Below, piece after piece: positions 647-32,627 of a DNA stretch of 32,845 nucleotides. The DNA lies in the NCBI GenBank assembly GCA_017453305.1, contig JAFTKJ010000010.1:1-32845 (forward strand), read 5' to 3'. The notes beneath the pieces were generated by a model. It had not been told where the DNA came from. It made no database searches and worked only from the letters and a program-made list of their open reading frames with translations. Numbering within the stretch: position 1 is the stretch's first letter; each line of letters opens with the position of its first letter. The translations under genes and the position numbers were made by a program. This DNA is from Clostridia bacterium. Its GTDB lineage: Bacteria > Bacillota > Clostridia > Oscillospirales > CAG-272.

Positions 647-1063
647 TTAAGTGTTTTTTTCAATTCGTTCGCCGCACTTGGGGCAGGTGACAATGATGCT
701 GCCTTTTCCGCGCGGCACGCGAAGGACAGACTTGCATTTGGTGCACTTGAAATAAGTGTGCGTTTTGCGGTCGCGCCACTTGTTGCGGCGGAGCTTGAAA
801 AATCCAAAAAAGCCGTTTTTGATCTTCAAATAGCGATCCAATTCCCGTCTGCGTTTGAAAATGTTTTTGGAAAAGCTGCGAAACAGCGACCAGATCATCA
901 CTGCAAGCGCAAGAAAATAAAAGAACCACAAAACGGGAACCCAGGAGAGCACCAAAAGCACGAGCGAGGTGATCATCAGCGCTTTTGTCAATTCGTCGTT
1001 GCCGTAACGCCCGTACAGAAAGCTTGCCATGCGATAGCCAAGCCGTTGAAACCAATTTTTCAT
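647..1063 (-). CDS. Membrane protein with C-terminal zinc ribbon
   Basis: A 138-residue hypothetical protein. Residues about 28-60 contain one or two hydrophobic segments, followed by a very basic linker (residues about 63-100). The C-terminus carries CTKCKSVLRVPRG and then CPKCGERI: two CxxC knuckles about 20 residues apart that form a rubredoxin-like zinc ribbon. The start codon overlaps the stop codon of the upstream alarmone synthetase in an ATGA arrangement at 1060-1063, so translation of the two is probably coupled. Basic linker plus zinc ribbon suggests nucleic-acid or protein binding at the inner membrane face, but this is inference. I do not recognise a named family beyond 'zinc-ribbon domain-containing membrane protein'. 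Confidence 0.8.
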   Translation of the reverse strand: MKNWFQRLGYRMASFLYGRYGNDELTKALMITSLVLLVLSWVPVLWFFYFLALAVMIWSLFRSFSKNIFKRRRELDRYLKIKNGFFGFFKLRRNKWRDRKTHTYFKCTKCKSVLRVPRGKGSIIVTCPKCGERIEKNT

Positions 1064-1782
1064 AATCCGATGTCACTCCTTTTTTCACGGTCAGAGCCGT
1101 CAATGATCTGCCGCCGCAGGTGATCCATACGCGCGTCCAACTCCGCGCTCATGTTGGCACAGCACTGCAGCTCGCTTGCAATCTGCTCGGTGGCGACAAT
1201 ATCCTTTTTGTAACGGAGCTGATGCTCCAGGGATGCCCAGCAGTCCATGGCAATGGTACGCAATTGAATTTCCACGCGCATGTTCCGTTTGCCCGCCTGC
1301 AGATAAATGGGGATCTGTACGATCAGATGCAGGCTGCGGTAACCATTCTCCTTGGGGTGGGAAATGTAGTCCTTTTGCGCGATCAGGGTAATGTCGTCCT
1401 GGCTGAGCAAGCACTCGGCAAGCAGATAAATGTCGTCCAAAAAGGAGCAGATCACGCGCACACCCGCAATGTCATTCAAGTTTTTCTCCATGGTTTGCAG
1501 CGTCATGGGGAGATTTTTGGATGCCAGCTTTTCTTCAATGCTGACGGGGGATTTGAGTCGGGATTTGATGCTGTTGATGGGGTTGCGATCAAAACGAAGC
1601 GAAAACTCCTCGTTGAGCACGTTCAGCTTGGTTTCTACCTCCATCATCGCGCATTTATAATAGGACATCAGCGTAATAAACGCATGCGAATGCCGGCGCG
1701 CCAATTGCAAATTTGGCGTGCTGATCAAGCTTAAGGATTTTTGGGGGACAGTAGTGGATTGAGTAAATGCTTCTTGTTTCAT
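1060..1782 (-). CDS. Small alarmone synthetase (RelQ/YjbM-like GTP pyrophosphokinase)
   Basis: Transfers pyrophosphate from ATP to GTP or GDP to make (p)ppGpp, a cytosolic stress second messenger. The 240 residues hold only the RelA/SpoT synthetase fold: the ATP-contacting basic loop SIKSRLKSPVSIEEKL (71-86), DIAGVRV (104-110) with the metal-binding Asp, KDYISHPKENGYRSLH (137-152) and VEIQLRT (170-176). There is no HD hydrolase, TGS or ACT domain, so it is a small synthetase and not a long Rel. Length is slightly above the roughly 210 residues of RelQ because of a non-conserved N-terminus of about 40 residues. It is the first gene of the operon, with GGAGGTG before the ATG and a promoter at 1801-1829. 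Synthetase-only enzymes are usually controlled at transcription or allosterically. Confidence 0.93.
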   Translation of the reverse strand: MKQEAFTQSTTVPQKSLSLISTPNLQLARRHSHAFITLMSYYKCAMMEVETKLNVLNEEFSLRFDRNPINSIKSRLKSPVSIEEKLASKNLPMTLQTMEKNLNDIAGVRVICSFLDDIYLLAECLLSQDDITLIAQKDYISHPKENGYRSLHLIVQIPIYLQAGKRNMRVEIQLRTIAMDCWASLEHQLRYKKDIVATEQIASELQCCANMSAELDARMDHLRRQIIDGSDREKRSDIGL

Positions 1783-24448: not shown

Positions 24449-24740
24449 AGTCCTTTTGTACGTACTGGTCATGGCGTTGACGACCTATCTTGTGCGTATG
24501 CTTCCCACGACACTTTTTCGCAAAAAGATCAAATCGCGCTTTGCAAAGAGCTTCTTTTATTATATTCCGTACGCGGTGCTCTCCGCCATGACCTTTCCCG
24601 CCATTCTGTACTCGACAGGGAGTCTATTGACGGCGACGGTTGGTCTTGCCGTTGCTCTCGTGCTGGCACTTTTTAAGCGTTCGCTGATCGAGGTATCTCT
24701 GGCGGCGTGCTTCGTCGTTTTTCTGGTTGGATTGATCTGA
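24438..24740 (+). CDS. azlD: AzlD-family branched-chain amino acid exporter, small subunit
   Basis: A 100-residue membrane partner of AzlC with three to four helices. Landmarks are the N-terminal LLYVLVMALTTYLVRMLPTTLFRKKIKSRFAKSFFYYIPYAVLSAMTFPAIL, which is typical of AzlD, and the final hydrophobic helix AACFVVFLVGLI. The ATG lies inside the azlC 3' end. After the stop, a weak hairpin (CGG/CCG) with eight T residues at 24767-24775 and the inverted repeat at 24800-24839 may end the transcript before spoIVA. Confidence 0.93.
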   Translation: MRAEVLLYVLVMALTTYLVRMLPTTLFRKKIKSRFAKSFFYYIPYAVLSAMTFPAILYSTGSLLTATVGLAVALVLALFKRSLIEVSLAACFVVFLVGLI

Positions 24741-24799
24741 TTCTCGGTGTAAAAACGGAATTGCCGATTTTTTTTGCACTGCTTGTTCTAAATAAAAGC

Positions 24800-24839
24800 A
24801 ACCTCCCATATATTGTATCAAAGCGATATATGGGAGGTT
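24800..24839 (+). promoter_or_regulatory. 14-bp perfect inverted repeat covering the spoIVA ribosome-binding site
   Basis: Arms 24800-24813 (AACCTCCCATATAT) and 24826-24839 pair perfectly across a 12-base loop. The right arm contains the spoIVA Shine-Dalgarno GGGAGG (24832-24837), 7 bases before ATG 24845. In RNA that includes both arms, the site would be sequestered. CATATATT (24807-24814) within the repeat is close to a SigE -10 (CATAYAMT), so transcripts starting after it would lack the left arm. Alternative reading: terminator of azlCD (short T-run after it) or an operator. Confidence 0.55.
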
Positions 24840-24844
24840 TTGTG

Positions 24845-26323
24845 ATGCCTGAACATTCAATTTATAAGGATATTGCCGAGCGTACGGGTGGAGATATTTA
24901 CGTTGGCGTAGTTGGTCCGGTCCGTAGCGGCAAATCCACCTTTATCAAGCGGTTTATGGAGTCTGTAGTGCTTCCAAACATTGGAGAGGGCTATTCCCGT
25001 GACCGCGCACGCGACGAATTGCCGCAATCGGCGGCAGGAAAGACGGTGATGACCACCGAGCCGAAATTCATTCCCGAGGAGGCGGTGCCCGTCGTGCTGG
25101 ATCATAACGCAAAAATGCGTGTCCGGATGATCGATTGCGTCGGTTATCTCATTCCAGAGGCGATGGGAGCCATCGAAAACGGTCAACCGCGAATGGTGCG
25201 CACGCCGTGGCGCGAGGAGCCGATGCCTTTTTCTGAGGCGGCGGAAATGGGAACGTACAAGGTCATTACGGAGCACTCCACCATTGGAATGCTGGTTACC
25301 ACCGATGGCTCGATCGGGGATATTCCGCGTGACGCCTACATTGAAGCGGAGGAGCGTATCGTGCGAGAGTTAAAGGCACTTGGAAAGCCCTTTGCCATCA
25401 TTTTGAACTCTGCACGTGCCGACAGCGAAAACGCACGTACTCTGGCATATGAATTGGAGGAGAAATACGGTGTTCCCGTGGCACTTGTCAGTTGCTTGGA
25501 TCTGGACGCCGAAGATATCCGCCACATCCTGGCGCTCGTACTGGAGGAATTTCCGGTCTCCGAGATCACCTTGCGTATGCCGGAATGGATGAACGCCCTG
25601 GATGAAACACATCGCATCCGAGCGTCCGTTCGTGCCTCCGTTTGCCGTTGTGCAGAGACGGTACGTAAGATCGGTGATGTTCCCACAGCCTTTGCGGGCA
25701 TGGAGGAAAACGAATACGTCGCGCACATAGGCGTGGAGACGTTGGATCTCGGCACGGGAAAGGCTGTCATTGAGCTCTCTATGCGGCAGGGACTTTATTA
25801 TGAAGTGATCAGCGAGCTGACGGGCTTTTCGGTTGGCGGTGAGCGAGAATTGATCGCGCTGTTGCGTGAGCTTTCCACTATGAAGGAGAAGTACGATAAG
25901 GTTGCAAAGGCGCTGGAGGAGGTCAACGAGCGTGGATACGGCATTGTGATGCCCGAGGTGGAGGATCTGCACTTAGAGGAGCCGCAGATCGTCAAGCAAG
26001 CGGGGGGCTATGGTGTCAAGCTTCGCGCAGGGGCGCAATCGGTGCACATGATCCGCGCTAACATCGAGGCGGAGATCAACCCCATGGTAGGTACCGAGCA
26101 ACAATCCGAGGATCTGGTGCGCTATCTGCTTAAGGAATTTGAGGAGGATCCCAAAAGCATCTGGAACTCCAATATGTTCGGAAAATCGCTTTATGAGCTT
26201 GTCAACGAGGGGCTACACACCAAATTGGAGCACATGCCGGAGGAATCACGCAAAAAGCTTTCCGAAACCTTGGAGCGCATCATCAACGAGGGAAGCAATG
26301 GCTTGATCTGTATTTTACTCTAA
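24845..26323 (+). CDS. spoIVA: Stage IV sporulation protein A, coat-basement ATPase
   Basis: Mother-cell ATPase that polymerises on the forespore outer membrane to form the base layer of the spore coat and is needed for cortex assembly. The 492 residues match the length of Bacillus SpoIVA. The N-terminal TRAFAC-like ATPase domain has Walker A GPVRSGKST (24-32, Lys30), switch region TTEPKFIPEEAV, the Walker B-like MIDCVGYLIPEAMGAIENG, and SIGDIPRDAYIEAEERIVREL. The C-terminal part, needed for membrane localisation, ends with ILL. Start ATG 24845 follows GGGAGG; the longer ORF from 24707 overlaps azlD in another frame. In known Clostridia it is under SigE. Here it follows azlCD with the inverted repeat between them. 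Confidence 0.98.
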   Translation: MPEHSIYKDIAERTGGDIYVGVVGPVRSGKSTFIKRFMESVVLPNIGEGYSRDRARDELPQSAAGKTVMTTEPKFIPEEAVPVVLDHNAKMRVRMIDCVGYLIPEAMGAIENGQPRMVRTPWREEPMPFSEAAEMGTYKVITEHSTIGMLVTTDGSIGDIPRDAYIEAEERIVRELKALGKPFAIILNSARADSENARTLAYELEEKYGVPVALVSCLDLDAEDIRHILALVLEEFPVSEITLRMPEWMNALDETHRIRASVRASVCRCAETVRKIGDVPTAFAGMEENEYVAHIGVETLDLGTGKAVIELSMRQGLYYEVISELTGFSVGGERELIALLRELSTMKEKYDKVAKALEEVNERGYGIVMPEVEDLHLEEPQIVKQAGGYGVKLRAGAQSVHMIRANIEAEINPMVGTEQQSEDLVRYLLKEFEEDPKSIWNSNMFGKSLYELVNEGLHTKLEHMPEESRKKLSETLERIINEGSNGLICILL

Positions 26324-27056: not shown

Positions 27057-27085
27057 TTGACAAAATGGCAAAAGAATGATATAAT
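27057..27085 (+). promoter_or_regulatory. Consensus SigA promoter of the TerB/BrxD/helicase operon
   Basis: TTGACA (27057-27062), 17 bases, TATAAT (27080-27085), then GGGGAGGTG 5 bases before ATG 27112. Perfect hexamers suggest constitutive and strong expression. Confidence 0.9.
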
Positions 27086-27111: not shown

Positions 27112-28809
27112 ATGGATCGAAACGAGCAAAAAAGAAGAGAAGAGGAGCTGGATCGCTTTTGGGATATCGACGCATTGATCCCGCCGAGAAAGATCATGCC
27201 CACACCCTCAAGCAATACCGATACGGTAGAGATTTTGGTGGAAAAAGAAGAAAAGAATGTAAATTCCAACGGCGCACAAGCTCTTCCACCGCGCAAAAAC
27301 GATCCCGAACGCTACTACGTTCCTCCCCATAAGCCGATTGATGCTGCGAGTGTCAAGGTGCCGGACGAGGAATACACACCGCAGGGCTCCCTGATTCATA
27401 CGGTGCGTATCTTCAAGCAAAAGACGAATTATCAATATTACGAAGCGTTCTGTGCCGATGCCGCACGTTTGTATGCGGTACACGGTGTGGAGTGCGCACA
27501 TATGCCATTCTTTTCTTACGTTCCACAGTATTCGCAAATGAACCGCCAACAATTGGAGTGGTACTTGTGGTGGCGCGAGAATTTCAGAAACGGGACGGCG
27601 CTTGCAACCGACTACAGCTATCTTTTGTTGTATGCATACGAGGTGATCAATCTGAAGGATCTGATGGATCCCTTGGAGGGGCAAACAATGCTGTGCCGCT
27701 TATGGCTCTCTTACCGTGAGCTTTTCCACCAGCTGGATACCTATCTTCCCGAATGGATCTGCGACTACAGTTTACTTCACCACTTGACACCGCCTGCAGA
27801 TCTTGACCCCAAGGAACTTTCCGCTGCCATGTCTCATTGTGCCCTCAAGGAGTTTTACGTTGCCTCCGACGAGGGAGACAGTCTTGTACGCGGACTTTTG
27901 ATTTTTGGATCAAATTATGATTATCACAAAAGCAAGTTCTATGTTCCCGAGTTGAAAAAATTGTTTGACGTTACCGTTCTCGGCGCCATGACCGCGGTGT
28001 TTGATGGGACGGGGGGAAGAGAAGGGAGCTTGTTTCAATTTGGTACGCCGGAGTCCACCCGATTGGTGCGGGATGCTTACACGGGTGCTCTGTGTGCTTC
28101 TACCGTCAAGCGCAAGATCGCCGTGGAGTACACCTCACTTTCCTGCACCCACAGCCTGCGTTTGTTGATCACAGACATCATAAAATATACCGAAAATCGC
28201 ATCCGAGGGCATATCGGTGTGCGTGCACGACTGGGTATTTACGCCTTGCCAACCAACATCCGTGCTATTTTGGATGAATATTTGAAGCCTTTGCAGACCA
28301 ATCAGCGTTTTGCCACCGCGCAAAAAAAGAAGGAAGAGGAGCAGGTCTACGAGCGCTTGTACGATCTGCCCAAAACGGCACTCTCCTTGGAAAATGCTTC
28401 AAAGATCGAGCAGACCTCCTGGAGCACTACAGAACGCTTGGTAGAGGCGTTTGCGGAAGAGGAGTCGTCGGCACCGATGCCCGTACCCTCTGCCGCCGAC
28501 GAGCCAACGCCGATAGAGAGTGTTCCTGCCACAATGAAGGAGGCAGACGTACAAAGCACGCCGTTGACACCGTATTTTGATTTCATTGAAGCCGCCGTGC
28601 AGGCAGACGGAGATGCACAAAAGCAGATCGCTTTGCAAAAGGGAGAGCTCATCGATGCCATTGCCGACCGTATCAACGAGTTGGCGGCAGAGCAGATGGG
28701 CGACGTCCTTTTGGAAGAGCGCGACGGAATTTACTGTGTATTAGAGGATTATCTGGAGTGGGCGATCGAGCTGATGCTTCAGGGGAAGGATGATGAAGAT
28801 GGAAAATAA
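27112..28809 (+). CDS. TerB-N/TerB-C domain protein
   Basis: A 565-residue cytosolic protein. The N-terminal 85 residues are polar and low-complexity. A TerB-N domain follows, about 90-290, with the signature SQMNRQQLEWYLWWRENFRNG (141-161) and TDYSYLLLYAYEVINL. The middle (about 290-400) is a helical region. A coiled, charged stretch (KKKEEEQ) leads to a TerB-C-type region with ENASKIEQTSWSTTERLVEAF (about 428-448) and a final helical segment. TerB-N and TerB-C are defined families, predicted from comparative genomics to link tellurite-type TerB modules to DNA processing; no biochemistry is established for this fold. First gene of a three-gene operon whose last base pairs overlap the ATPase gene. 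It may form a scaffold for the ATPase and helicase. Confidence 0.85.
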   Translation: MDRNEQKRREEELDRFWDIDALIPPRKIMPTPSSNTDTVEILVEKEEKNVNSNGAQALPPRKNDPERYYVPPHKPIDAASVKVPDEEYTPQGSLIHTVRIFKQKTNYQYYEAFCADAARLYAVHGVECAHMPFFSYVPQYSQMNRQQLEWYLWWRENFRNGTALATDYSYLLLYAYEVINLKDLMDPLEGQTMLCRLWLSYRELFHQLDTYLPEWICDYSLLHHLTPPADLDPKELSAAMSHCALKEFYVASDEGDSLVRGLLIFGSNYDYHKSKFYVPELKKLFDVTVLGAMTAVFDGTGGREGSLFQFGTPESTRLVRDAYTGALCASTVKRKIAVEYTSLSCTHSLRLLITDIIKYTENRIRGHIGVRARLGIYALPTNIRAILDEYLKPLQTNQRFATAQKKKEEEQVYERLYDLPKTALSLENASKIEQTSWSTTERLVEAFAEEESSAPMPVPSAADEPTPIESVPATMKEADVQSTPLTPYFDFIEAAVQADGDAQKQIALQKGELIDAIADRINELAAEQMGDVLLEERDGIYCVLEDYLEWAIELMLQGKDDEDGK

Positions 28810-30181
28810 AAATTTTGAAATTCCCAAGGTGCCAAAGCGCATTTTGACCTCGCTTCTTTCGTCGGTTTCGGCGGGCGTGGTTCCGCGCGCAGGTGCTCCT
28901 TATATTGCCATTGGGCGTAAGGATGAGATTGCCGCACTGCTTTCCGATCTGGAGGAGGTCAACGAGGGCGGAGGCTCGATGCGCTTTTTGGTGGGACGGT
29001 ACGGAAGCGGAAAGAGCTTTTTGATGCAATTGATCCGCGGTTACGCTTTGGAGCGCGATTTCCTTACCGCCGATGCCGATCTTTCCCCCGAGCGCCGTTT
29101 GTACGGAACGGGAGGAAGCGGAGTTGCCACCTACCGCGAGCTGATGAAAAATCTGGCGTCCAAAGCGTCCCCCGACGGAGGTGCGCTTCCTAAGATCATT
29201 GCACGCTGGATCTCCGGTTTGCAAGGAGAGGTCATAGATGGGGGAATCTCTATGGATGATCCTCGCTTTACCGATGCGCTTAGTCGCCGTGTGATGGATA
29301 CCTTGCGCGAAGTGGAATTTTTGGTGGGTGGTTTTGATTTTGCACGCGTGATCACCGCTTATTACCGTGCGTATATTGACGGCAACGACGATTGTCGCAG
29401 CGCGTGCCTGCGCTGGTTACGCGGTGAGTACTCTACCAAAACAGAGGCACGCCATGATCTCGGCTTTTCGGTTTCGGTCATTATCGATGACGATAACTGG
29501 TACGACTTTTTAAAGCTTTGGGCATCGCTCTCTCGCTTGATCGGCTATCGCGGCTTGGTCGTGTTCATCGACGAATGTGTCAATCTTTACAAAATCTCGC
29601 ACCGCGTCAGCCGCGAGAACAACTATGAAAAAATTCTTTCCATGTTCAACGACACTCTGCAGGGCAGAGCCCCGGGGCTTGCGCTGATCCTTGGCGGTAC
29701 GCCGCAGTTTTTGGAGGACACGCGCAGGGGACTGTTCAGCTACGAAGCATTGCGCAGTCGTCTTTGCGACAGTCGCTTTGCTCTTGATGGGTTTAAAAAT
29801 CTCATCGGTCCCGTCATTCGCCTGCGCCGCCTTTCGGACGACGAGCTCTTTGCGCTGATCAGCCGCATCACAAAGCTTTACGCCCAAAACTACGGGCAGG
29901 AGCCGCGCATTACCGAGGAGCAAATGGTGCATTTTTTGCAGATCTGTCTGGATCGTGCAGGTGCGGACAGCCTCATTACACCGCGTGAAATGTTACGCGA
30001 CTATATGACCGTACTAAACATCCTGATGCAAAATCCGGAGGCATCCTTCGAGGACGTTGTCGGGAGTGCCGTGACGTTGAAAACCGAAGCCGAGGCAGAG
30101 GAAGAGGAGACGGAGCACGTGGAAAAGGAAGAAACAAACACACAACACAATGCGTTTTCTATTGAGGACATCGAATTTTAA
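28799..30181 (+). CDS. BrxD-like P-loop ATPase (DUF2791)
   Basis: A 460-residue AAA-like ATPase of the BREX BrxD family. It carries YIAIGRKDEI near the N-terminus, Walker A VGRYGSGKSFLMQLIRG (about 65-81, Lys72), YGTGGSGVATYRELM, and Walker B RGLVVFIDECVNLYKI (Asp-Glu at about 258-259). The later motifs are AlILGGTPQFLEDTRRGLFSYEALRSRL and a C-terminal helical domain with ITPREMLRDYMTVLNIL. An acidic tail (EAEAEEEETEHVEKEE) ends the protein. The start is set at ATG 28799 because the GGGGAAGG site (28782-28789) is 9 bases before it; ATG 28790 and 28793 are too close. It overlaps the TerB-N gene by 11 bases, so the two are probably made together in fixed ratio. In BREX subtypes BrxD pairs with a BrxHI helicase, as here. 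Confidence 0.9.
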   Translation: MENKNFEIPKVPKRILTSLLSSVSAGVVPRAGAPYIAIGRKDEIAALLSDLEEVNEGGGSMRFLVGRYGSGKSFLMQLIRGYALERDFLTADADLSPERRLYGTGGSGVATYRELMKNLASKASPDGGALPKIIARWISGLQGEVIDGGISMDDPRFTDALSRRVMDTLREVEFLVGGFDFARVITAYYRAYIDGNDDCRSACLRWLRGEYSTKTEARHDLGFSVSVIIDDDNWYDFLKLWASLSRLIGYRGLVVFIDECVNLYKISHRVSRENNYEKILSMFNDTLQGRAPGLALILGGTPQFLEDTRRGLFSYEALRSRLCDSRFALDGFKNLIGPVIRLRRLSDDELFALISRITKLYAQNYGQEPRITEEQMVHFLQICLDRAGADSLITPREMLRDYMTVLNILMQNPEASFEDVVGSAVTLKTEAEAEEEETEHVEKEETNTQHNAFSIEDIEF

Positions 30182-30229
30182 CCATTTTGAGCGCATTGCC
30201 ATCGAATTAGGATTGGAAGGAGTATGCAG

Positions 30230-32455
30230 ATGAGTGATATTTTTGAACGCTATCCACCGTTTGTGCAGGAGTTTATCTATTCACATGGCTGGGAAACCCT
30301 GCGAGAGGTGCAGGTCGCGGCTGCAGAGGTGATCTTTGATACGGATCACAACCTGCTCTTGACCTCCTCCACAGCCAGCGGTAAGACCGAGGCGGCGTTT
30401 TTTCCAATCCTTTCGGATCTGTGCGAACGTCCGCCCCACAGCATCGGCGTTTTGTATATTGCACCCCTCAAAAGCCTGATCAACGATCAATTCTGGCGCA
30501 TTGAGGAGCTGTTGAACGAAAGCGGCATTCCCGTGACGCATTGGCACGGTGACGTGGCACAATCGCATAAAAAGAAGCTTTTGGAGCGCCCGCAAGGAAT
30601 TTTGCAGATCACGCCGGAGTCGCTTGAAGCCATGCTCATCAACCGCAGTAACGATATCGTGCGTTTGTTCGGTGACCTGCGCTATATCGTCATCGACGAG
30701 ATCCACACCTTGACGGGTAGCGACAGAGGAAATCAAATTTTGTGTCAGCTTTCCCGTATCGGACATATCATCGGATACCATCCGCGCAGAGTCGGACTTT
30801 CCGCAACCATTGGAGACGCGCAAAAAGCGGCAGATTGGTTGGGGGCGGGAAGCGGTCGCATGACTGTAGTTCCCAAGCTGGAGGAGGCAAAGATCCATTG
30901 GCGTCTCGGTATGGAGCATTTCTATATTCAAAACAGCAAGGCAGACCAGGCAACGCCGCCAAAGGAGAGCGCCGAGGCTGCGGCAACTCCGCCCCTTTAT
31001 GATGCAGGCTACTCCTTTATGTACGATTGTGTCAAGGATCGCAAATCCCTCGTTTTTTCCAATTCCCGTGAGGAGACCGAGTATCTTTGCGCTACCTTTC
31101 GGCAGATCGCGCAAAAAAGGAGAGAGCAGGACGTTTTTTTGATTCATCACGGTAATCTTTCCGCATCCATTCGCGAGGAAGCCGAAATGAAAATGAAGGA
31201 CGAGGATATCATGGCGGTGACCTGTGCCACCGTTACCATGGAGCTTGGGATCGACATCGGACGTCTTGAGCGCATTCTGCAAAATCAGTCACCCAACTCG
31301 GTTACAAGCTTTTTGCAGCGCCTGGGGCGTTCCGGCAGACGTGGACAGCCTCCCGAAATGATGATGGTGTTCCGAGAGGAGGATCCGCTCCCCAACACTC
31401 CATTACCTCAGCTGATCCCGTGGGAGCTGCTCAAAGCCATTGCCATTGTGCAGCTGTATATCGAGGAGCGGTTCATCGAGCCGCCCCAGGTGCGCCGTTT
31501 GCCCTTCAGCCTTTTGTTCCATCAAACACTGAGCGTGCTGGCGGCCGCCGGAGAGCTTTCATTGCGCCGCTTGGCAGAGAGAGTGCTGGCATTGCCGCCC
31601 TTTGCCGACGTGCCGAAAGAGGACTACAAGGTTCTGATCCTTTCCATGCTCAACAACGACTTTTTGGAAATGACCGAGGAAAAAACGCTCATTATCGGAC
31701 TTGCGGGCGAGCGTCTTTTGCGCTCCTTCAAATTTTATGCCGTATTCAAGGATTCGGAGGATTACACCGTACGGTGCGGCTCAGATGAGATCGGCACCAT
31801 CACAACGCCGCCTCCCGTGGGAGATCGCTTTGCCTTGGCGGGACGAGTATGGGAGGTCGAGGAGCTGGACATTCAGCACAAGCTCATCTATGTCAAAAGC
31901 GTGGAGGGGAAGATGGAGGTCTCCTGGCCCGGTGACTACGGCGAGATCCATACCCGCATTTTGCAACGGATGCGCCGCGTGCTGGAGGAGGATACCGTCT
32001 ATCCGTATCTCAAGCCCAACGCACAAAAGCGCCTGGAGCAAGCGCGTCACGTAGCACGCAATACGGGAATGCTCAACCACTCTCTCGTGCACCTTGGCGG
32101 ATACTCGTGGTGTCTTTTCCCGTGGCTTGGTACGCGCTCCTTCCGCACGCTGCGCAAAATGCTGCGCCAATATGCCCCCGCATTGCAAATTACGGGTATC
32201 GAGTACGAGGGATGCAATTATATCACCTTTAAAATGTCGCGCGGCAACGATTATGAATTGATCACCACGCTTGCAAACGCGGTCAGACAAGGGCGCGTCA
32301 GCACCGAGGATCTGGTCTCAAGCAATGAGATTCCCGTGTTTGAAAAATACGACGATTACGTTCCTGCTGACCTCTTGCGCCACGCCTATGCCGTGGACAA
32401 GCTGTCCTTACAGGAGGCATCCGAACGCATTTTGGAGATGGAAGAGGAGTATTGA
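30230..32455 (+). CDS. DEAD/DEAH-box helicase, Lhr/BrxH-like
   Basis: A 741-residue superfamily 2 helicase. Motif I TASGKT (48-53), Ia PLKSLIND (79-86), a GxHG-like THWHGD, TPESLEA, II DEIH (156-159), III SATI (191-194), IV VFSNSREETEYL, V TVTMELGIDIG and VI QRLGRSGRRG (362-371) are all present. The long C-terminal half (about 390-741) carries a winged-helix and Lhr-like region, with GDRFALAGRVWEVEELD and WPGDYGEIHTRILQRMRR. It would move on or remodel DNA with ATP. The start is ATG 30230, 7 bases after GAAGGAG; ATG 30224 is too close to that site. It lies 48 bases after the BrxD-like gene. No nuclease, methyltransferase or alkaline-phosphatase-like (PglZ) gene is near. Confidence 0.93.
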   Translation: MSDIFERYPPFVQEFIYSHGWETLREVQVAAAEVIFDTDHNLLLTSSTASGKTEAAFFPILSDLCERPPHSIGVLYIAPLKSLINDQFWRIEELLNESGIPVTHWHGDVAQSHKKKLLERPQGILQITPESLEAMLINRSNDIVRLFGDLRYIVIDEIHTLTGSDRGNQILCQLSRIGHIIGYHPRRVGLSATIGDAQKAADWLGAGSGRMTVVPKLEEAKIHWRLGMEHFYIQNSKADQATPPKESAEAAATPPLYDAGYSFMYDCVKDRKSLVFSNSREETEYLCATFRQIAQKRREQDVFLIHHGNLSASIREEAEMKMKDEDIMAVTCATVTMELGIDIGRLERILQNQSPNSVTSFLQRLGRSGRRGQPPEMMMVFREEDPLPNTPLPQLIPWELLKAIAIVQLYIEERFIEPPQVRRLPFSLLFHQTLSVLAAAGELSLRRLAERVLALPPFADVPKEDYKVLILSMLNNDFLEMTEEKTLIIGLAGERLLRSFKFYAVFKDSEDYTVRCGSDEIGTITTPPPVGDRFALAGRVWEVEELDIQHKLIYVKSVEGKMEVSWPGDYGEIHTRILQRMRRVLEEDTVYPYLKPNAQKRLEQARHVARNTGMLNHSLVHLGGYSWCLFPWLGTRSFRTLRKMLRQYAPALQITGIEYEGCNYITFKMSRGNDYELITTLANAVRQGRVSTEDLVSSNEIPVFEKYDDYVPADLLRHAYAVDKLSLQEASERILEMEEEY

Positions 32456-32509: not shown

Positions 32510-32538
32510 TTGCAATTTCCGTTTTTGTGTGATATAAT
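32510..32538 (+). promoter_or_regulatory. SigA-type promoter of tRNA-Val
   Basis: TTGCAA (32510-32515), 17 bases, TATAAT (32533-32538), 12 bases before the mature tRNA 5' end. Confidence 0.85.
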
Positions 32539-32550
32539 ATACACCGTTGC

Positions 32551-32627
<77 letters not shown>

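Follow-up and report, generated by a model that had tools for sequence, protein, structure and literature searches.

What is the three-gene operon on contig JAFTKJ010000010.1 of the Clostridia bacterium assembly GCA_017453305.1? The window, meaning the whole stretch of DNA analyzed here, is 32,845 nucleotides long and comprises one entire contig, the DNA past its ends being out of view. An earlier note, made from the sequence alone, had proposed that the operon, encoding a TerB protein, a BrxD-like ATPase and a helicase, is an unnamed and independent anti-phage or DNA-maintenance machine next to an island border. That proposal was borne out in part. Judged by its protein sequences, the operon is the already described Shango (SngABC) system and not a new machine, since all three PADLOC Shango models match in order and score above the models for BrxD and BrxHI. 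We consider it likely that the operon defends against phages and sits on the chromosome as a resident module. What the sequences show is the family membership of all three proteins, their gene order, intact ATPase and helicase motifs, a conserved consensus-like promoter, divergence broadly like that of a core gene, and nearly constant co-occurrence of the genes.

On plates, Shango has been reported to give Pseudomonas aeruginosa 10-100-fold protection from many, though not all, of the phages tested, and the same paper cites a report of Shango defense in Escherichia coli (PMC10250203). By analogy, the operon probably provides phage defense in this Clostridia lineage as well.

Identity of the operon

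The operon is a single unit of three genes, as the earlier note had held (Table 1). The open reading frames (ORFs) lie where it had placed them and run in one direction, sngA and sngB overlapping by 20 nt and sngB being followed by sngC after 42 nt; the consensus promoter that it had seen in front of them is also there. The profile searches that it had proposed for each protein returned TerB_N, TerB_C, BrxC_BrxD and DEAD/Helicase_C domains. Its family assignments therefore stand by Pfam and PADLOC, except that the Lhr winged helix of the helicase is only sub-threshold (18.1 bits against a Pfam cut-off of 27).

SngA matches the PADLOC SngA model at 4.5e-48 over profile positions 69-525 of 528, and its TerB_N (8.9e-20) and TerB_C (1e-07) domains are both over the Pfam cut-off. 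The central TerB domain PF05099 was not found in it at E ≤ 0.01 and is likewise undetected in 4 of 6 plasmid SngA proteins. SngB scores 3.1e-170 with the PADLOC SngB model versus 5.4e-50 with BrxD, and belongs to Pfam BrxC_BrxD (1.2e-158). Its Walker A motif GRYGSGKS (residues 69-76) is kept in 80 of 80 aligned SngB rows; the strict pattern of its Walker B motif VVFIDE (residues 257-262) occurs in 62 of the 80, and the first six of the other 18 are one-letter variants that retain DE. SngC scores 2.2e-248 with its own model versus 1.3e-126 with BrxHI and carries Pfam DEAD and Helicase_C domains. Its motifs I, II (VIDEIH), III and VI are intact, motifs I-III being kept in 57/57 and motif VI in 59/59 ungapped rows. 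By sequence, the best solved relative of SngC is YprA (6znp, 2.3e-27), followed by Lhr-type DNA helicases, whereas no solved structure matched SngA at E ≤ 1 or SngB at E ≤ 0.01. The sequence features that characterize Shango are found in the window: a TerB-type SngA, an SngB with Walker motifs, an SngC with intact motifs, and the A-B-C order.

Table 1. Coordinates of features in the window and, where a locus is named, in relatives
Feature	Position	Strand	Description
sngA	27112-28809	+	565 aa, compact TerB_N + TerB_C protein; ORF, PADLOC, Pfam
sngB	28790-30181	+	463 aa, AAA+ ATPase, BrxC/BrxD family; ORF, PADLOC, Pfam
sngC	30224-32455	+	743 aa, SF2 DEAD/DEAH helicase, BrxHI/Lhr-like; ORF, PADLOC, Pfam
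Promoter-like site TTGACA-17-TATAAT, extended -10 TG	27057-27085	+	12/12 match
tRNA-Val(gac)	32551-32627	+	next gene 3' of sngC, 95 nt away
Promoter-like site of tRNA-Val itself	32510-32538	+	
spoIVA	24707-26323	+	core sporulation gene upstream of sngA; Pfam SpoIVA domains; control gene
Abi_2-family genes	L204:9465-10340 and L201:8464-9324		directly upstream of unlinked sngA

It might be argued that the locus is instead a BREX type 2 system in partial or degenerate form, in which BrxD and BrxHI remain and a TerB protein takes the place of the rest. SngB does fall within BrxC_BrxD, SngC does match BrxHI, and BrxD and BrxHI are described as linked to each other in BREX type 2 (PMC12839542). However, the Shango models score far higher, SngB reaches 165.9 bits with the NCBIfam BrxD equivalog against a cut-off of 350, and a genome-wide search found no PglZ in the window's own genome (80% complete) and PglZ in only 1 of 34 congeners. 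A BREX remnant was rejected on the PADLOC and NCBIfam scores and the missing PglZ, and we regard it as highly improbable. PglX, BrxC and BrxA/BrxB were absent among the PADLOC matches listed for 14 window proteins (for SngC, 25 of 57 matches), no genome-wide search for them having been made. The earlier note's observation that BREX genes are missing thus holds for PglZ in this 80%-complete genome, what lies beyond the contig ends being out of view.

Setting of the locus

Is the operon part of an island? The earlier note took tRNA-Val for an island border, and a recently acquired mobile defense island inserted at this tRNA would account for its place directly after sngC and for flanking genes that vary between species. 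Shango is also found on mobile elements: SngB-like ATPases occur in 692 of 72,556 plasmid records, all below 60% identity and 542 of them predicted to be conjugative. Six of the 692 were opened, the other 686 being unchecked, and 6/6 hold Shango triads in A-B-C order by annotation; for eight proteins from three plasmid operons, the best PADLOC match was the expected Sng model in 8/8. Yet the 3' end of tRNA-Val occurs only once in the window, the G+C of the operon is level with that of its flanks, and 19 of 21 relative stretches scanned are without a tRNA, although several end soon after sngC and a tRNA just beyond would escape. Nor was there any match in 50,697 phage records, and synonymous divergence is about equal to that of a core gene (see below). 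No integrase family appeared among 16 window proteins scanned with Pfam, the far end of any island beyond the contig being out of view. The single tRNA end, level G+C and tRNA-free relative loci leave insertion at tRNA-Val unsupported, and we think a recent island of this kind very unlikely. In the site listing there is no terminator-like site on the plus strand between sngC and tRNA-Val. On the Arthrobacter plasmid pLDW-10 (L232:9373-12282), SngC is fused to a C-terminal RNase_T/DEDDh exonuclease domain.

Gene neighborhoods were compared at 30 loci, the window and 29 stretches, two of these from one genome. The triad mostly keeps its order in relatives and the flanking genes differ between species, no flanking or inserted gene family occurring in more than 4 of the 30 loci (one cluster of ORFs antisense to sng excluded). 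Around spoIVA, our one control gene, order is also loose but less so, and the AzlC cluster of the window recurs in 14 of 31 loci, in two of which the simple ORF caller missed SpoIVA itself. Cargo between sngB and sngC in some relatives was considered and rejected; the genes are eutH (L039, L042, L043, L049) and/or a PHP-domain gene (L040, L042), which follow sngB in five species of the genus.

An association with defense islands, which the earlier note had suggested looking for, was not seen. The test covered up to two neighboring genes per side, each coding for 100 aa or more, with 150 of 198 genes scanned at 47 loci; duplicate loci (L091-L095, L105, L117), L096, L136-L170, loci after L121 and the distant genomes G041, G042 and G052 were left out, and ORFs were called by a longest-ORF rule, such that a few may be spurious in the Shango and control sets. 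At 1e-10, PADLOC matched four families among the 150 neighbors, one of them a piece of SngC, and at most four genes. In the spoIVA control, with 110 genes from 30 loci, 31 PADLOC families were matched; most of the 25 listed are single-member GajB models, which perhaps all match one UvrD-type gene. By gene number there is no excess of defense genes at Shango loci. One survey describes a tendency of restriction-modification genes to accompany Shango outside defense islands (PMC10924106). The neighbors in our set are mostly of housekeeping type, with riboflavin kinase/FAD synthetase, PALP enzymes and NrdR as the commonest Pfam families (25 of 122 families listed).

The promoter is shared with relatives. 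In the 150 nt 5' of sngA, compared in 23 of 27 fetched relatives (G002, G033, G041 and G042 left out), the best site scores 12/12 in 14, 11/12 in 6, 10 in 1 and 6 in 2; in the last two (G021, G034) tblastn matched sngA as two separate pieces, which left its start poorly placed. The best score 5' of spoIVA at 31 loci is at most 10/12. Scores of 11 or more occur in 7/440 random 150-mers from the same loci and in front of 24/204 ORFs of at least 150 aa, sngA among them. In front of nine split-off sngC genes the best sites are weaker and score 7-10/12.

Further genes of the window include, by Pfam, those for phenylalanyl-tRNA synthetase beta, enolase, germination protease, AzlC and SpoIVA. A small RelA_SpoT-domain protein (1060-1782, minus strand) also matches the PADLOC candidate model PDC-S33 and is perhaps an ordinary small alarmone synthetase.

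Co-occurrence, dispersal and descent

The locus itself is an ordinary linked Shango, and the surrounding lineage is the more interesting. SngB (own genome left out) occurs in 22/34 congeners, at E ≤ 1e-100 in 22/37 genomes of the family and 46/259 others of the order, weaker matches in G141, G186 and G300 having been dropped from the order count, and in 14/298 genomes of a phylum sample. In the order sample of 296 genomes beside the window's own, SngC (E ≤ 1e-100) is found in 69 and TerB_N in 63. SngB and SngC occur together in 67, SngB alone in 1 and SngC alone in 2, and 63/63 genomes with a TerB_N match also hold SngB. In the SngB-only genome, G119, a 206-aa piece of SngC follows sngB and SngC falls under the threshold. 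The earlier note had named an invariant core locus without defense-island association as the case against its reading. The second part of that case is what we see; the first is not, as SngB is missing from 15/37 family genomes, all at least 90% complete. SngB-less genomes of the genus are smaller (medians 1.55 vs 2.2 Mb), a difference confounded with completeness and not used here. Two side observations concern SngC: it occurs without an SngA or SngB match at L193 (G316) and L194 (G173), in genomes 96 and 97% complete, and in five genomes of the order (G150, G256, G268, G280, G309) sngB is followed by a tandem of two matches, each of SngC length.

Where all three genes are present, they lie on different contigs in 14 of 62 genomes of the order sample, sngA and sngB apart from sngC in 10, sngA apart from sngB and sngC in 3, and all apart in 1. 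Profiles built from the fetched loci re-confirmed the genes and the missing neighbors in 13/14; the remaining genome, G041, rests on separate searches. Misbinning is possible for any pair of contigs, and the split in G111 is uncertain, as its contig stops some 2.4 kb past sngB. G062 gives the clearest case: on a single contig of 384,531 bases, sngB and sngA lie near 141-144 kb and sngC lies at 246 kb. A scan of named genome contigs found at least 582 relatives, of which the best 80, all titled metagenome-assembled genomes, were kept. Ten of 80 loci compared have at least 4 kb after sngB with no sngC there, and SngC is elsewhere in the genome in 10/10, in G061 only as pieces. The 4 kb or more before sngB are without sngA in six genomes, five of which have it elsewhere, none being seen in G070. 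The samples overlap (judged by identical contig positions, G066, G067, G069 and G072 are G196, G286, G269 and G151) and their counts are not additive. The Shango genes nearly always co-occur per genome even where they are far apart. Directly 5' of the unlinked sngA in G282 and G241, and on the same strand, lies an Abi_2 gene (PF07751, E 1.9e-50 and 3.3e-50).

The divergence of the sng genes broadly follows that of a core gene. Among 20 genomes with SngA, SngB, SngC and SpoIVA (22 less two in which a gene was short or absent), distances for the three Sng proteins track SpoIVA distances with r of 0.90-0.92, and of 0.58-0.72 among the 18 of the genus; 0 of 2000 permutations gave as high a correlation. 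Rates were compared in 17 congeners (G018 also left out), giving 136 pairs. Synonymous divergence (dS) in the 12 closest pairs is 0.8-3.1 for SngB and SngC and 0.9-1.7 for SpoIVA, partly saturated. Relative to SpoIVA, the median nonsynonymous divergence (dN) of the 136 pairs is 2.9x for SngA and 0.91x for SngB and SngC.

These data bear on a second explanation, namely that the Shango genes of this lineage act in repair, at replication forks or by recombination, and owe their retention to that housekeeping or DNA-maintenance role. Their housekeeping-type neighbors, their joint retention in the 14 split genomes, and a synonymous divergence of SngB and SngC similar to that of SpoIVA would suit such a role. 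However, the family genomes without SngB imply that the system is not essential, and a SngA changing about three times as fast as SpoIVA suits an arms race better. We judge a housekeeping function to be unlikely, though less so than a recent island.

A wider proposal, which we advance tentatively and with some doubt, is that Shango in this Clostridia lineage has turned from a mobile cassette into a settled, constitutively expressed chromosomal machine of innate immunity (or genome guarding). Its proteins, though encoded at separate sites in many species, would be kept or lost nearly as one, with the fast-changing TerB protein as its sensor. This settled, inherited and partly dispersed behavior may be new; searches of open-licence PubMed Central listed no report of unlinked or vertically inherited Shango. 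PADLOC and DefenseFinder require adjacent genes. If the proposal is true, tools based on adjacency would overlook dispersed Shango. Counts made by adjacency probably underestimate Shango in this Clostridia group. A rumen survey lists Shango among its detected systems (PMC13356809). The lineage offers Shango for study as a stable, inherited system, and both the unlinking and the contrast in rates make its mechanism easier to test. That the genes come apart in nature and still co-occur almost without exception speaks for joint action of the three proteins in trans, and the faster change of SngA than of SngB and SngC makes SngA the candidate for the part facing a changing opponent.

Possible mechanism and comparison with known systems

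How might resident Shango act against phages? SngC groups with the helicases BrxHI, DruE and DpdJ (PMC12278908), and BrxD has been placed among the ORC/Cdc6 AAA+ ATPases, with the proposal that it loads or activates BrxHI (PMC12839542). By analogy with these, a loader-helicase pair of SngB and SngC is most likely the core of the mechanism. SngB, an ATPase of ORC/Cdc6 type, would oligomerize and load SngC onto the DNA of an invader or onto intermediates of its replication, with SngA, likely a sensor or adaptor because it is the fastest-changing part, choosing the target. SngC could then block or remodel phage replication, and the DNA may be handed to a cellular nuclease, which we propose because the operon encodes none. 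The exonuclease fusion of the Arthrobacter plasmid and the Abi_2 neighbors hint at candidate effectors. The consensus-like promoter 5' of sngA suggests standing surveillance and not induced expression.

Several points weigh against a resident anti-phage module of this kind. No phage phenotype is known for the source organism or a close relative, no effector is visible in the operon, the loading model is an analogy, and the neighbors are nearly free of defense genes. Dispersed and broadly vertically inherited genes would also fit a housekeeping DNA role. The dN/dS of SngA is below 1 in pairs with computable dS, such that diversifying selection is not shown. SngB lacks a TerB_N match in five genomes (G051, G148, G158, G268, G291), G051 nevertheless holding an SngA-like stretch by tblastn, and SngC stands alone in two. 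Against simple vertical descent, the SpoIVA tree has, of 17 splits, 3 in common with that of SngB, 4 with SngC and 6 with SngA (about 0.3 after label shuffling), and the SngB and SngC trees have one in common; these single-gene trees are quick and poorly resolved, with SpoIVA the sole core marker, and some transfer or recombination of sng genes is possible.

Among known systems, the Lhr/YprA helicases have an SF2 core in common with SngC, which differs by its sub-threshold Lhr winged helix and by its operon partners. The BrxD-BrxHI pair of BREX type 2 consists of a homologous ATPase and helicase lying side by side as in the operon; here, in contrast, a TerB protein stands beside the pair, SngB is under the BrxD equivalog cut-off, and PglZ was not found in the genome, the other BREX genes not having been searched genome-wide. 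Compared with Shango as described, the window's SngA is compact, its central TerB domain being undetectable, no island context is seen at the locus, and in relatives of the source genome the genes are often on separate contigs. In common with it, the same three co-directional genes, for a TerB protein, a BrxD-like ATPase and a DEAD/DEAH helicase, stand in the same order, and their proteins match the Shango models across most of the model length.

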